Shown: positions 25,641 to 30,902 of the stretch, piece after piece | Layout: each line of letters opens with the position of its first letter | Numbering within the stretch: position 1 is the stretch's first letter | Virus record (IMG/VR): IMGVR_UViG_3300037963_004322 | Coordinates: 11,623-57,998 of that record | Source of the DNA: a virus | DNA: 46,376 nt | Strand: one strand, 5' to 3' | The notes under the pieces: generated by a model | Databases searched by the model: none | Told to the model about the DNA's origin: nothing | What the model saw: only the letters and a program-made list of their open reading frames with translations | Position numbers and translations under genes: made by a program

Positions 25641-26423
25641 GTGCCATTTCCAATACAACCATATACCGCAAAGACATTATTTGGTAATCTTGCACAATCT
25701 TCACATTATGAAGTTAGATTCCAGATTCCTGGTCCTGTAGTTGACTACTTGTTCACTAAAGGTGTTTCACCATTTTATTGTGTGAATGATTTTGGGTTAC
25801 TTTGTTTCAATACATCACTACCCACATCTGCATATGCAACTTCTGAAGTAACTCCATATGTTGGTATCAGGCAAAAAATTGCCCATACCAGAATGTACAC
25901 AAACATGACAATGGAGTTTTATGTTGATAATAAGTACAATACTATAAAGGTTTTAGAGCACTGGATGGATTTTATTTCCAGTGGATCTGATGATGAAATC
26001 TCAAAACTATCGGATGATTATTACATTAAAATGCAATACCCTGATAGTTACAAATCAACTGAAACAAAAATTATTAAATTTGATAGAGATTATAGAAGAG
26101 ACATTGAGTATACTTTTAGAGGACTATTTCCACAATCAATCTCTGCAGTTCCAGTAAGTTATGCTGGGTCTGATGTATTGAAAGTTGCAGCAACTTTTGA
26201 ATATGATCGTTATATTGCTGGAAGAACAACAAGTCTTGACTTTTTTAAAGGAACCAATGAAAATAAAGAATCTTCTGTAAAAGAAAGAATACCTGTTGAA
26301 GGTAGAACTCCAATAAGAGGACAAGGTGGTGTGGTTTGGATTCCAAAAGGTTTGACTTATGCGGAAGCATCTTTCCAAGATAAAATTTTTAGTGGTCCTA
26401 GAGGGGATGCAAAAGGTTTCTGA
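25641..26423 (+). CDS. 54: Baseplate tail-tube initiator gp54-like
   Basis: A 260-residue protein starting at GTG. VRFQIPGPVVDYLFTKGVSP, then IAHTRMYTNMTMEFYVDNKY and LEHWMDFISSGSDDE, and later ATFEYDRYIAGR follow the tail-tube (gp19-like) fold shared by gp54 and the tube protein. Length and position next to baseplate genes favour gp54, which nucleates the tube on gp48. The C-terminal extension with KGTNENKESSVKERIPVEGR and a Gly-rich end is longer than in a plain tube protein. A gp19-type tube paralogue is the alternative. Confidence 0.72.
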   Translation: MPFPIQPYTAKTLFGNLAQSSHYEVRFQIPGPVVDYLFTKGVSPFYCVNDFGLLCFNTSLPTSAYATSEVTPYVGIRQKIAHTRMYTNMTMEFYVDNKYNTIKVLEHWMDFISSGSDDEISKLSDDYYIKMQYPDSYKSTETKIIKFDRDYRRDIEYTFRGLFPQSISAVPVSYAGSDVLKVAATFEYDRYIAGRTTSLDFFKGTNENKESSVKERIPVEGRTPIRGQGGVVWIPKGLTYAEASFQDKIFSGPRGDAKGF

Positions 26424-26461: not shown

Positions 26462-27181
26462 ATGCCGTTACCAAAAGTATCTACTCCAACATATGAGTTG
26501 GTCATCCCTTCACTGAAGAAAAAGATTAAATATAGACCTTTTCTGGTAAAAGAAGAAAAGATTTTAATCATTGCAATGGAGAGTGAAGATCAAAAACAAA
26601 TTACCAATGCAGTCAAAGATGTAATTTCAAACTGCATTATTACAAGAGGGGTAAAGGTAGATCAACTGGCTACTTTTGATATTGAATATCTCTTCCTTAA
26701 CATTAGAGGTAAATCTGTAGGCGAAACTGCAGACGTTTTAATTACATGTCCAGATGATGGAAAAACACAAGTTCCTCACAGTGTTAATTTGGATGATATT
26801 CAAGTTGAAGTTAGTGATGATCACAGCAGAGATATTAAATTAGATGATGATCTTACTGTAAGGATGAAATATCCTTCAATGAATGAGTTTATTAAAAATA
26901 ATTTCTCTGCATCAACTGATATAACAGTTGATGACACATTTAATGTAATCACTGCATGTATCGAGCAAGTTTATAATGAAGAAGAATCTTGGGCAGCATC
27001 TGATTGTACTAAGAAAGAACTTAAAGAGTTTATTGAGCAACTAAGTTCAAAACAATTTAAAATGATTGAAAACTTTTTCAATACTATGCCTAGGTTGAAG
27101 CACGTTATTAAGGTAACTAATCCAAATACTGGAGTAGAAAATGAGATTGTTCTTGAGGGCTTAACATCTTTTTTCGCCTAG
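26462..27181 (+). CDS. 26: Baseplate hub protein gp26
   Basis: A 239-residue member of the T4 gp26 baseplate family. The start PLPKVSTPTYELVIPSLKKK is followed by KIKYRPFLVKEEKILIIAME, then FDIEYLFLNIRGKSVGE, a zinc-free CPDDGKTQ loop, and KYPSMNEFIKNNFSA. The C-terminus reads EFIEQLSSKQFKMIENFF then NTMPRLKHVIKVTNP and stops at TAG. It helps assemble the central hub. The last codons (TCT TTT TTC) form a slippery heptamer leading into the next frame, so a longer 298-residue product is predicted. Confidence 0.85.
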   Translation: MPLPKVSTPTYELVIPSLKKKIKYRPFLVKEEKILIIAMESEDQKQITNAVKDVISNCIITRGVKVDQLATFDIEYLFLNIRGKSVGETADVLITCPDDGKTQVPHSVNLDDIQVEVSDDHSRDIKLDDDLTVRMKYPSMNEFIKNNFSASTDITVDDTFNVITACIEQVYNEEESWAASDCTKKELKEFIEQLSSKQFKMIENFFNTMPRLKHVIKVTNPNTGVENEIVLEGLTSFFA

Positions 27182-27208
27182 CAATGACGCATGAGAACCT
27201 CGCGTCAT
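27169..27208 (+). promoter_or_regulatory. Predicted -1 ribosomal frameshift signal
   Basis: The slippery heptamer T TTT TTC (27169-27175) is in the correct zero-frame phase at the end of gp26. After an 8-base spacer, a 7-bp perfect stem ATGACGC/GCGTCAT (27184-27190 with 27202-27208) with an 11-base loop follows. Slipping back one base reads TTT TTT CGC CTA GCA and enters the 57-residue frame at its ATG. Confidence 0.7.
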
Positions 27209-27357
27209 ATTATAAAATGAATTTTGCCTTGGTTCAGCATCATAAATACTCTTTGACGGAGTTAGAAAATATGATACCGTGGGAGAGAGAAGTTTATGTT
27301 TCTCTACTTCAACAGTATATTGAAGACGAAAATCTAAAGAACGGTAATGGCACCTAA
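27184..27357 (+). CDS. 51: gp51-like small tail-assembly protein
   Basis: A 57-residue frame: MTHENLASYYKMNFALVQHH, KYSLTELENMIPWEREVYVS, LLQQYIEDENLKNGNGT. The W-E-R-E-x-Y-x-x-L-L block is typical for the C-terminal part of phage tail-assembly chaperones and for the small hub-assembly protein that follows gp26 in T4-like phages; T4 gp51 itself is much longer, so the name is tentative. It starts 2 bases after the gp26 stop. It may be made alone or, by a -1 shift at 27169, as the C-terminal end of a gp26 fusion. It overlaps the next gene by 11 bases. Confidence 0.6.
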   Translation: MTHENLASYYKMNFALVQHHKYSLTELENMIPWEREVYVSLLQQYIEDENLKNGNGT

Positions 27358-28978
27358 TTCTCCAATCTTAGGATCACAAGCAAGACAAAATATCGTTGGT
27401 GGTGGTAATATCTACCAAGGTGTTGGTGGTGCTGGTGCTATTCCTGTTATGGGGCAACCTTTTGCCACCATGGATGATATAAGACGTATTGAAGAATCTG
27501 TAAATAATTCTACAAATCAGACAGTAGAAAGTTTAAATATACTCAGTCAAGGATTCCAAGGTTTAGAAACACAGATATTGCAATTGAGTCTTGGTATAAA
27601 TGGTATTGTTCCATTAATACAACAAGATACTGACGAACAAAGAAGAATTTTATTGGAGCAGCAAGAAAGAGAAAGAGTTCTTGCCGAAGCAAACGTGAGG
27701 CGTGGAAAAGAAGATCAAATAGAATCAAAAGTATCATTTGCTTTTGATAAAGCAGCACGTCCCTTAACAGCAAAAGTCAGAGGACTATTTGATAGGATAA
27801 GTGAAGCAATAATGTACTTGATGGGTGGGTGGTTAGCAGTTAATGTTAGTAAGTTATTAGAAGCACAAGAGAATGAGAATGTAAATTTAATAGCAGACAT
27901 TAAACGTAGACTTGCTGATGGGTCAAAGAATTTCTTAAATTCTTTAATTTTACTTGGGGGAGGAATTTCAAAGTCTATAGCAACAGTTCTTGGTATAACT
28001 AAAAGTATTGGTGGTTTCATATTTAAAAGACCTTTTGATGCGATTAAAAACTTCTTTGGAATCGCAACAGATGCTGCAAAGAAACGTAAATCTGCAGGAG
28101 GTTTTGGAACTTTTGTTTCATCAGTTGCAGAGATTGTTGATGGTTTATTAACTAATAGACCAGAAAATCTTGCCGAAGGTGCTGTAGGTTTAGCATCATT
28201 TATTCCAGGACCTGCTGGAAAAGCAGCTAAGGTTATTTTCTGGGGAAAGCAGATCATGGATTTGGGAAGTGCATTCCTAGGATCTCCAGATAATAAGCAA
28301 CCAACACAGTCTAGTAATCCTACTATGACTGGAAATAATACAACTACAGAAAATACTAAAGTAGAGGCAAATACTGCAAATGCCAACTTTAGTGAGGCTG
28401 GAGAGAGTACAGAAACTCAGACAGTTACTTTAAATGAAGAGCAACTAGCAAATTATAATAAGGCACTTCAATTTAAAGATAATCCACTTGCTAAAGGGAG
28501 GATTGCTGAAGAATTTAATAAGATGAGTCCTGAGAATCAACAACTGTTCAGAGATTATGCTGCGCAGCAAGGTGATGATTTTAGTAATGTAATACCTCCA
28601 GTAGTTGCACAAGTTGAACCTAAGTCTGGAATTATGACAAACAAGGCAACAGAAAATTTGCAGGTTGGAGAGACTAATGCTGAAGTTCAACAGATTGCAC
28701 AAGAAGAGATAAATTTTGTTGCCAAATCAAATAACGCTCAGGTTAGTGCTAATTCTGAAAATGTTCAAGCACCTCCACCAAAATTACAAGAACCAGCACA
28801 ACTTTCAGAACCAGCACCTCAAATTGTTCCTATGAATTCTGGAGGTGGAACACAACAACCAATGGTAAATATTCCTGAGCAAAAGGATCCGATGACGAAT
28901 GTTCCTAAGATTGCTTCTTCCAATCCTGAAAACTTCTATACATTATATTCATTACATTCCTATAATGTGGTAGTATAA
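27347..28978 (+). CDS. Large tail/baseplate structural protein, tape-measure-like
   Basis: A 543-residue protein. Residues 1-40 are Gly-rich; 45-130 form a long coiled-coil-like helix (MDDIRRIEESVNNSTNQTVE, then EQQERERVLAEANVRRGKED). Residues 140-320 hold several hydrophobic helices separated by Gly (YLMGGWLAVNVSKLLEAQEN, ILLGGGISKSIATVLGI, GLASFIPGPAGKAAKVIFWG), as in tape-measure proteins. The C-terminal third is polar and low in structure, ending in Pro/Gln-rich segments. It lies just before a peptidoglycan-hydrolase-bearing tail protein and the hub, where T4 has gp29-type genes, but I see no direct gp29 match. Confidence 0.55.
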   Translation: MAPNSPILGSQARQNIVGGGNIYQGVGGAGAIPVMGQPFATMDDIRRIEESVNNSTNQTVESLNILSQGFQGLETQILQLSLGINGIVPLIQQDTDEQRRILLEQQERERVLAEANVRRGKEDQIESKVSFAFDKAARPLTAKVRGLFDRISEAIMYLMGGWLAVNVSKLLEAQENENVNLIADIKRRLADGSKNFLNSLILLGGGISKSIATVLGITKSIGGFIFKRPFDAIKNFFGIATDAAKKRKSAGGFGTFVSSVAEIVDGLLTNRPENLAEGAVGLASFIPGPAGKAAKVIFWGKQIMDLGSAFLGSPDNKQPTQSSNPTMTGNNTTTENTKVEANTANANFSEAGESTETQTVTLNEEQLANYNKALQFKDNPLAKGRIAEEFNKMSPENQQLFRDYAAQQGDDFSNVIPPVVAQVEPKSGIMTNKATENLQVGETNAEVQQIAQEEINFVAKSNNAQVSANSENVQAPPPKLQEPAQLSEPAPQIVPMNSGGGTQQPMVNIPEQKDPMTNVPKIASSNPENFYTLYSLHSYNVVV

Positions 28979-28979
28979 G

Positions 28980-30902
28980 ATGTCAATACAATCAATTATC
29001 AACGCAAACACTAATCAACAGAGAATTGGCGTTAATATCTTGATGACCAAAAAGTCTCTAGATAATATAAGAGAAACAACTGCTAAAACTCAAACAAGTG
29101 TAGATAATATATACAGAATAATTGAGGGTAGAATTGAAGAAAGAGCACAAATTGTTAATAGGACTAATTTACTCAGAAATAGGAGAGAAGAATTACGAGT
29201 AAGAAGTGCAAAAGAAGCGGAGATTGAAGCAGGAAATTTAAATCCCAAAAAAGCAATACCTGGACAAAAGGTAATGAGTAATGCTGGGGGTAGTTTCTTT
29301 GATAGAATTTTAGGATTTCTTGGATGGACTACTGTTGGATGGATTACTCAAAACTTTCCAGTATGGAAAGAAATGGGAGAAAATTTTATAAAAAGAGCTA
29401 GAATTCTTGGCGATACTCTTATAAAATTTCCCGGAAATATGGTAAGAATTTTTAGGGCATTTACTGCAGTTTTAGATGCTCAATTGAAAAATATTCTATA
29501 TTTTGATTTTCGAGATGAGAGTGGAAGAGTCTCTGCTGCGACGAGTGAATTAGATATGTCTCTTAAAATAATGCAAGAGTCTTTTGAGGATGCTTTTTCT
29601 GTATTTGATCCAAATGCATTTAAAAACGTTGGTAATGAAGATGATGGTAATAATGGTAGTGGTGGTAGCACTGGTAGTACTGCTGGAGCAGGAACAGGGC
29701 AGAAATTCACATCGAAAGGTGGTACAAAAATAGAAGACCCTGGTGGTCAGGACTACGGATACTATAATCCAAATTCAATGGGAAGTAGGACATCTACGAG
29801 AGTTCACGGTGTTGGTGGAGAAATGGGACACACTGGTGAAGATTATGCTATGCCAATTGGTACACCACTGACATTATTGGTTGGAGGAAAAGTAGTTGAT
29901 GTTGAAAAAAATGAGTCTAAAGGTGGTGGATATGGTAAGTTTGTTGTCGTTCAATTAGAAGATGGAAATTATTTAAAACTTGCTCACATGGACTCTATCA
30001 ATGTAAATATTGGTGATGAAGTTGGAATGCAAGAGGATGGTACAGCACCAGTACTTGGATTTAGTGGAGACACTGGATTAAGTAGTGGTCCTCACTTACA
30101 CTTGGATTATGCATCAGGATATGATCCAAGTAGTGCCATGGTCTCTGGAACAATGAATCCCAAAATAATTATTGAAAGTGGAGGTCTTGTAAAGGGCGAT
30201 AATGTTAGAGAGATAAAAGTTGAAATGCCACCAGCTCCAGTTCAACCTTCCCAATCGGCAAATTCATCCTCTACAACTCAAACTTCTACACCACAAAATA
30301 AACTGATTCCATCATCTGGAGGTAACTATAGTATTGCTGATATGGTTCAACTTGCTAAAAACGCTGGATTTAGTGATAGTGATGCTGCGATTATGGCATC
30401 AATAGCAATGGGAGAATCGGGTGGTGATGCTCGTGCAAGATACAATCCAGATGGGAGCACTGAAGATTCATATGGATTATGGCAGATTAATATGGATCCC
30501 AAATATATTGATGAAAGGTTGCAAATGTTTGGTATTTCAAGTAAAGAGCAATTGTTTGATCCTGCGACAAATGCAATGGCTGCTAAGAAACTATGGGAAC
30601 AGCAAGGATTTAGAGCATGGACTGAATATAAAAATAAGGATTATAAAGAGTTTCTCCCCGAAGCACAGTCTGTTGTGATGTCTTCTGGTAGACCTGAACA
30701 AAGCATTGCTAAGTCATCTCAAGTTACTCCAGAACGAAAGGGACCTACTGTAATTGTTGATCAGGGTGGAGGATCTCAACTCTCTATGCCATCACCCATG
30801 GTTGCCCAATCACAGGGTAGTGATAGTGGATCTGTAGATCCACTTACCATGTTAAATAACTTTATGAAACAAAAATTACTCTTAGATTTTAGTTACCTAT
30901 AA
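28980..30902 (+). CDS. Tail-associated peptidoglycan hydrolase: M23 peptidase + lytic transglycosylase-like
   Basis: A 640-residue structural enzyme. The first 200 residues are helical and include a hydrophobic stretch (FDRILGFLGWTTVGWITQNF). The middle is a LytM/M23 endopeptidase: H284-T-G-E-D288 and, at 370-376, G-P-H372-L-H374-L-D (zinc ligands), with LAHMDSINVNIGDEVG between. After a Ser/Thr/Gln linker comes a lysozyme-like domain: IMASIAMGESGGDARARYNP with E479 as the likely acid, then SYGLWQINM and KKLWEQQGFRAWTEYKN. Together they cut peptide cross-links and glycan strands to let the tail through the wall. This activity is in gp5 in T4. It couples to the hub gene by TAATG. Confidence 0.78.
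   Translation: MSIQSIINANTNQQRIGVNILMTKKSLDNIRETTAKTQTSVDNIYRIIEGRIEERAQIVNRTNLLRNRREELRVRSAKEAEIEAGNLNPKKAIPGQKVMSNAGGSFFDRILGFLGWTTVGWITQNFPVWKEMGENFIKRARILGDTLIKFPGNMVRIFRAFTAVLDAQLKNILYFDFRDESGRVSAATSELDMSLKIMQESFEDAFSVFDPNAFKNVGNEDDGNNGSGGSTGSTAGAGTGQKFTSKGGTKIEDPGGQDYGYYNPNSMGSRTSTRVHGVGGEMGHTGEDYAMPIGTPLTLLVGGKVVDVEKNESKGGGYGKFVVVQLEDGNYLKLAHMDSINVNIGDEVGMQEDGTAPVLGFSGDTGLSSGPHLHLDYASGYDPSSAMVSGTMNPKIIIESGGLVKGDNVREIKVEMPPAPVQPSQSANSSSTTQTSTPQNKLIPSSGGNYSIADMVQLAKNAGFSDSDAAIMASIAMGESGGDARARYNPDGSTEDSYGLWQINMDPKYIDERLQMFGISSKEQLFDPATNAMAAKKLWEQQGFRAWTEYKNKDYKEFLPEAQSVVMSSGRPEQSIAKSSQVTPERKGPTVIVDQGGGSQLSMPSPMVAQSQGSDSGSVDPLTMLNNFMKQKLLLDFSYL

Follow-up and report, generated by a model that had tools for sequence, protein, structure and literature searches.

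The gp26 junction and its reading frames

The stretch of viral DNA analysed here (the window; 46,376 nt, AT-rich, from IMG/VR record IMGVR_UViG_3300037963_004322) carries a gene of the T4-like gp26 family, followed by a short frame that is annotated as gp51 in its relatives. All coordinates are counted from the first letter of the window and all features are on the plus strand. The gp26 gene (26462-27181) encodes 239 aa and is predicted to specify the short form of a tail assembly chaperone (TAC-N). The junction and its conservation in relatives make it very probable that a programmed -1 ribosomal frameshift yields two tail assembly chaperones from this one gene.

The last zero-frame codons of gp26 are ACA TCT TTT TTC GCC TAG. 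The slippery heptamer T TTT TTC lies at 27169-27175, with TTT TTC as zero-frame codons. It is followed by an 8-nt spacer, GCCTAGCA (27176-27183), which includes the gp26 stop codon TAG (27179-27181), and by a stem of 7 bp formed by the 5' arm ATGACGC (27184-27190) and the 3' arm GCGTCAT (27202-27208) around a loop of 11 nt. The original prediction, made from the letters of the window, had placed the heptamer in this phase and described the same spacer and stem, and it was exact in all three. The stem region folded at -10.4 kcal/mol (z = -2.8). A Shine-Dalgarno-like (SD-like) GAGGG at 27155-27159, 9 nt 5' of the heptamer, was absent from that prediction and is a probable upstream stimulator.

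The -1 frame is free of stops from the slip to 27357. The extension (27175-27357) comprises 60 aa beginning R-L-A-M-T-H and a stop codon. The predicted fusion is 298 aa in length (238 + 60), and the claim that such a product would stand beside the 239-residue gp26 was confirmed at the level of the reading frames. A 57-codon frame beginning at ATG (27184-27357), 2 nt past the gp26 TAG, corresponds to gp51. It is probably not a stand-alone gene, as many relatives have no ATG.

Slippage itself, its efficiency and the binding partners of the products belong to the proposed mechanism. Most ribosomes would read gene 26 through to TAG and release the 239-aa short form. A fraction would stall on the heptamer while tRNA-Phe occupies both TTT and TTC, aided by the SD-like GAGGG about 10 nt upstream and the stem 8 nt downstream. 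Both tRNAs would then move back one base onto TTT TTT and reading would resume as CGC CTA GCA ATG, so that gp26 and gp51 are joined in a product of 298 aa. If the two forms act as lambda gpG and gpGT do, the tape measure protein would be bound by the gp26 part, and tail tube subunits would be brought in by the C-terminal domain that the long form (TAC-NC) adds.

Conservation of the slip site and its flanking elements

The bare heptamer occurs 26 times in the window compared to 23 expected. As it is as common as chance in AT-rich DNA, only its phase and position count in one genome and conservation is the real test. Junctions were collected from gp26-family loci in IMG/VR relatives, named phages and further scans, giving 272 distinct junctions. 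T TTT TTN was present in phase in 268 of these (N = C in 223, A in 27, T in 17 and G in 1). It was in phase in all 80 IMG/VR relatives with 72-85% gp26 identity, and also in Cr30, YB07, phiAS5, Aeh1, ACP17, OLIVR6, KVP40-like phages and Melnitz. The four junctions without it were those of a T4-type phage (L097), a T4-type locus (L352), Ackermannviridae Vi01 (L098) and Vibrio phage D533 (L094). No loss of the heptamer or of its phase was found among cyanophage relatives that keep both parts, although such a loss was looked for.

A set of 142 non-redundant loci was drawn from the 268 junctions. These loci are related, so counts among them are not independent events, and all carry the heptamer by construction, which makes control sites the informative comparison. 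A second conserved Phe-Phe of the same genes was T TTT TTN in only 5 of 136 loci, as were 17 of 483 other Phe-Phe/Leu pairs within gp26. TTT accounted for 71% of Phe codons in gp26. The second slip codon was TTA or TTG in 15/142 loci, where the zero-frame residue becomes Leu and the six T's are kept. One codon separated the heptamer from the stop in 132/142 loci. A chance heptamer is ruled out by this conservation (268/272 compared to 5/136 at the control Phe-Phe), and the comparison strongly supports the original proposal of a -1 slip that carries gp26 on into gp51, as in lambda G/GT.

The SD-like site was examined through its tetramers and codons. GGAG, GAGG or AGGA was found in 116/142 loci, mostly 8-11 nt before the heptamer, compared to 138/710 control windows. 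Glu codons at the site were GAG in 69% of cases (31% in the gp26 body) and Gly codons were GGG in 23% (7% in the gp26 body).

For the downstream element, folding of the 50 nt after the heptamer was compared to codon-shuffled controls that keep the -1-frame protein. The median z was -2.25, with a mean of -10.4 kcal/mol compared to -5.4 kcal/mol in controls, a difference of approximately 5 kcal/mol. Folding was within the lowest 5% of controls in 58% of loci. Of the seven stem pairs of the window type, six or more were present at unchanged offsets in 53/142 loci, compared to 0-8 with the 3' arm shifted. In 67 loci picked by ATG position only, the 3' arm covaried with the third base of the codon after the ATG, GCT occurring with GAG 29 times and GCG with GCG 11 times. 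Other lineages have other stems, of 12 bp in S-PM2 and 10 bp in S-N03. A universal stem is ruled out, since in some loci, among them L050, L183 and L194, folding did not exceed that of the controls. Judged from these sequences, the stem is a frequent stimulator that varies between lineages. The many natural variants of one signal should be useful for the study of slippage stimulation.

A conserved -1 frame after gp26 (..MPWH..) was also observed in three Ackermannviridae loci (L098, L359 and L356) and in Vibrio phage D533. No gene is annotated over it in Vi01 and RA148. The junctions of these four loci have no canonical heptamer (GAA ATT TTC ATT TAA; CAG ATT TTC ATT TAA; TCA CTT TTC AAG TAA), and a non-standard slip or another mechanism would be needed there.

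Status of gp51 and alternative explanations

Coding in the -1 frame is conserved from its first codon. This codon was Arg in 119/142 loci, with both CGN and AGR in use, and entropy was 0.92 bits for the -1-frame residue compared to 2.38 bits for the zero-frame residue. The possibility that gp51 is a separate small gene, reached by termination and reinitiation from the ATG 2 nt after the gp26 stop with the T-run incidental, agrees with the position of the ATG at 27184 and with the separate gp51 annotated in many records. It is contradicted by the absence of an ATG from the first 15 codons past the slip in 46/142 loci, and of any ATG, GTG or TTG in 29/142. The six T's outlast amino acid changes, and in S-CAM1 and ACG-2014d the gp51 stretch carries no annotation. 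A free-standing gp51 cannot explain the loci lacking an ATG, the Arg conserved ahead of the ATG in the -1 frame or the unannotated stretches, and we regard it as a very improbable account. An independent gp51 start as the sole route is ruled out, since approximately one third of loci have no ATG. In KVP40-like phages (L340, L341, L096, L357 and L360) the stop and the gp51 start overlap as TAATG, with the heptamer and -1 frame also present, and reinitiation and slippage could coexist.

The frameshifted product might instead be made by RNA polymerase slippage on the T-run. In Melnitz-like methylophages (L099 and relatives among L260-L276) the heptamer merges with the stop in AGT TTT TTT TAA; this run of eight T's is perhaps long enough, and polymerase slippage could act there too. 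In the window, as in most relatives, the run stops at six T's and a C comes next, the codon phase is invariant, and the stem and SD-like elements fit ribosomal slippage, so that the polymerase is even harder to credit than reinitiation. Least probable of all, and hardly to be entertained, is that the signal represents either a relic without function or a side effect of the conservation of Phe-Phe. The heptamer alone is indeed common by chance in AT-rich DNA. Such an origin is contradicted by the control Phe-Phe given above and by T4-type phages, whose fused gene 51 is a gene of its own and which mostly keep the Phe-Phe and not the slip codons.

Several results weigh against programmed frameshifting, or at least against parts of its signal. 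The covariation consists of few independent changes (7 and 9), for which a sign test was not significant, and a test of independent pairs gave only 3 supported pairs. No clear stem was evident in about a fifth to a quarter of loci; of the elements that the original prediction proposed to align, the heptamer and its phase were kept and the stem was not universal. Anti-SD duplex energy by itself was weak (median z -0.66) and was set aside as a stand-alone test, codon choice and position being informative instead. The window ATG, 2 nt after the stop, would permit reinitiation as well.

With slippage as the preferred explanation, the short gp51 makes most sense as a C-terminal domain belonging to a fusion. 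The original prediction had placed gp51 in hub assembly through the G/GT trick. The frameshift layout stands, and gp51 as a neighbouring hub gene gives way to this domain. The cyanophage annotation "gp51, baseplate hub assembly catalyst" would most likely denote a frameshift tail, which would make it a widespread error.

Relationship to known chaperones and the T4-type arrangement

Many phages make the long form of their tail-building chaperone by slippage of this kind, and the window locus fits. Frameshifting is reportedly conserved in several T4-like groups. The trick itself is known; what is seen here is a signal that hundreds of related viruses share with hardly a base changed. G-T frameshifting has been described as widely conserved in long-tailed phages except T4 (Atkins et al., 2016). 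T4-like tail assembly chaperones were identified by Vladimirov, Gautam and Davidson (2022; Virology 566:9-15, PMID 34826709), as related in citing papers (PMC10885494, PMC12846349). From the same work, the PRFect paper cites some T4-like phages in which a short chaperone gene is accompanied by a longer, fused one, and the Adele paper cites poly-T slip signals in TAC-N genes. Going by these citing papers, the concept is already published, and the statement in the original prediction that no description was known for gp26/gp51 does not hold. The families are the same, as are the short and long forms of one chaperone and the poly-T signal; the window adds a further genome with quantified stimulators. 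Neither the stem nor the SD-like site was found described in the literature covered, which did not extend to the full text of Vladimirov et al. (2022). Membership of the window locus in the T4-like chaperone frameshift class is well supported by its sequence.

The -1 frameshift of lambda gpG/gpGT (Levin, 1993; Xu, 2004, 2013, cited in PMC5009743) also has a tail tube gene upstream. Compared to lambda, gp26 is larger (239 aa), and its heptamer is T TTT TTN, flanked by an SD-like site and often a stem.

The -1 cassette of Escherichia coli dnaX consists of an SD-like element approximately 10 nt upstream, an A AAA AAG heptamer and a downstream stem. The window has the same three-part layout, and the SD-like site and stem are present in most relatives though not in all. 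The heptamer and gene differ, and slipping gives a shorter product in dnaX and would give a longer one here. In the chaperones of Pakpunavirus and Vandenendeviridae (PMC12846349), TAC-N likewise ends in a conserved -1 slip, and the frame downstream is unannotated or misannotated; the slip motif there is GTTTTT and the phage family is a different one.

Two earlier observations bear on gp51. According to Sullivan et al. (2010), approximately 200 residues are lacking from the N-terminus of cyanophage gp51, and Aeh1 has no gp51. In Aeh1 (L344) the junction is GAT TTT TTC GAC TGA, with the heptamer intact and the -1 frame present, and there is no ATG at the usual place. Reading gp51 as a frameshift tail would explain both points.

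gp26 of the window matched the full-length PF12322 profile (E=2.8e-73, 246.6 bits compared to a curated cut-off of 24.5) and phrog_150 (E=2.3e-80). The short -1 frame matched phrog_634 (E=6.2e-26) and positions 239-278 of phrog_150, which indicates that some members of that family are already fused. T4-type gp51 matched PF12322 over residues 1-201 (E=1e-54) and phrog_150 from end to end; on these matches it is paralogous to gp26 and carries the C-terminal domain fused in frame. Of 16 phages searched for PF12322, the T4-type phage had two gene copies and the other 15 had one each. In T4-type gp26 the Phe-Phe is mostly kept and coded TTC TTT, which is not slippery, and in some it is gone; the sequences indicate that the slip site has been lost. 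Frameshifting and gene duplication would be two routes to a short and a long chaperone, exchanged in a natural swap.

A wider account is reasonably likely. In marine T4-like phages, and in several further groups of myoviruses, the long form of gp26 would be set by an SD-like site, T TTT TTN and a fast-evolving stem, the signal persisting while its RNA stem was rebuilt time and again. In the T4 lineage a duplication of gene 26 would have taken the place of this signal and left gene 51 fused for good. What is annotated as a gp51 gene in most cyanophages would then not be a gene, and its absence from Aeh1 would be an annotation effect.

A chaperone-like fold was seen in the predicted model of gp26 (pLDDT 86.5). 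The model aligned to the HK97 tail assembly chaperone 2ob9 with a Z of 7.9 (84 residues, 4.0 Å) and to yqbN 3klu with a Z of 7.2, the next clearly unrelated match having a Z of 2.3. Foldseek against the PDB gave no significant E-value for the model, with HK97 gp13 tail chaperone and yqbN having the two highest probabilities. A PDB search by sequence returned nothing relevant, VIA-align of the T4 gp51 model included no tail chaperone among the matches listed and a search of Rfam gave no match. On the predicted model, gp26 has the fold of the HK97 tail assembly chaperone.

The ORF upstream of gp26 (25641-26423) is tail tube-like (PF23849, phrog_45). Two large ORFs stand right after the -1 frame, at 27347-28978 (543 aa) and 28980-30902 (640 aa). 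They had only partial tape-measure-like matches, and the second contains Peptidase_M23 and SLT lysozyme domains. Together they form a candidate tape-measure region.
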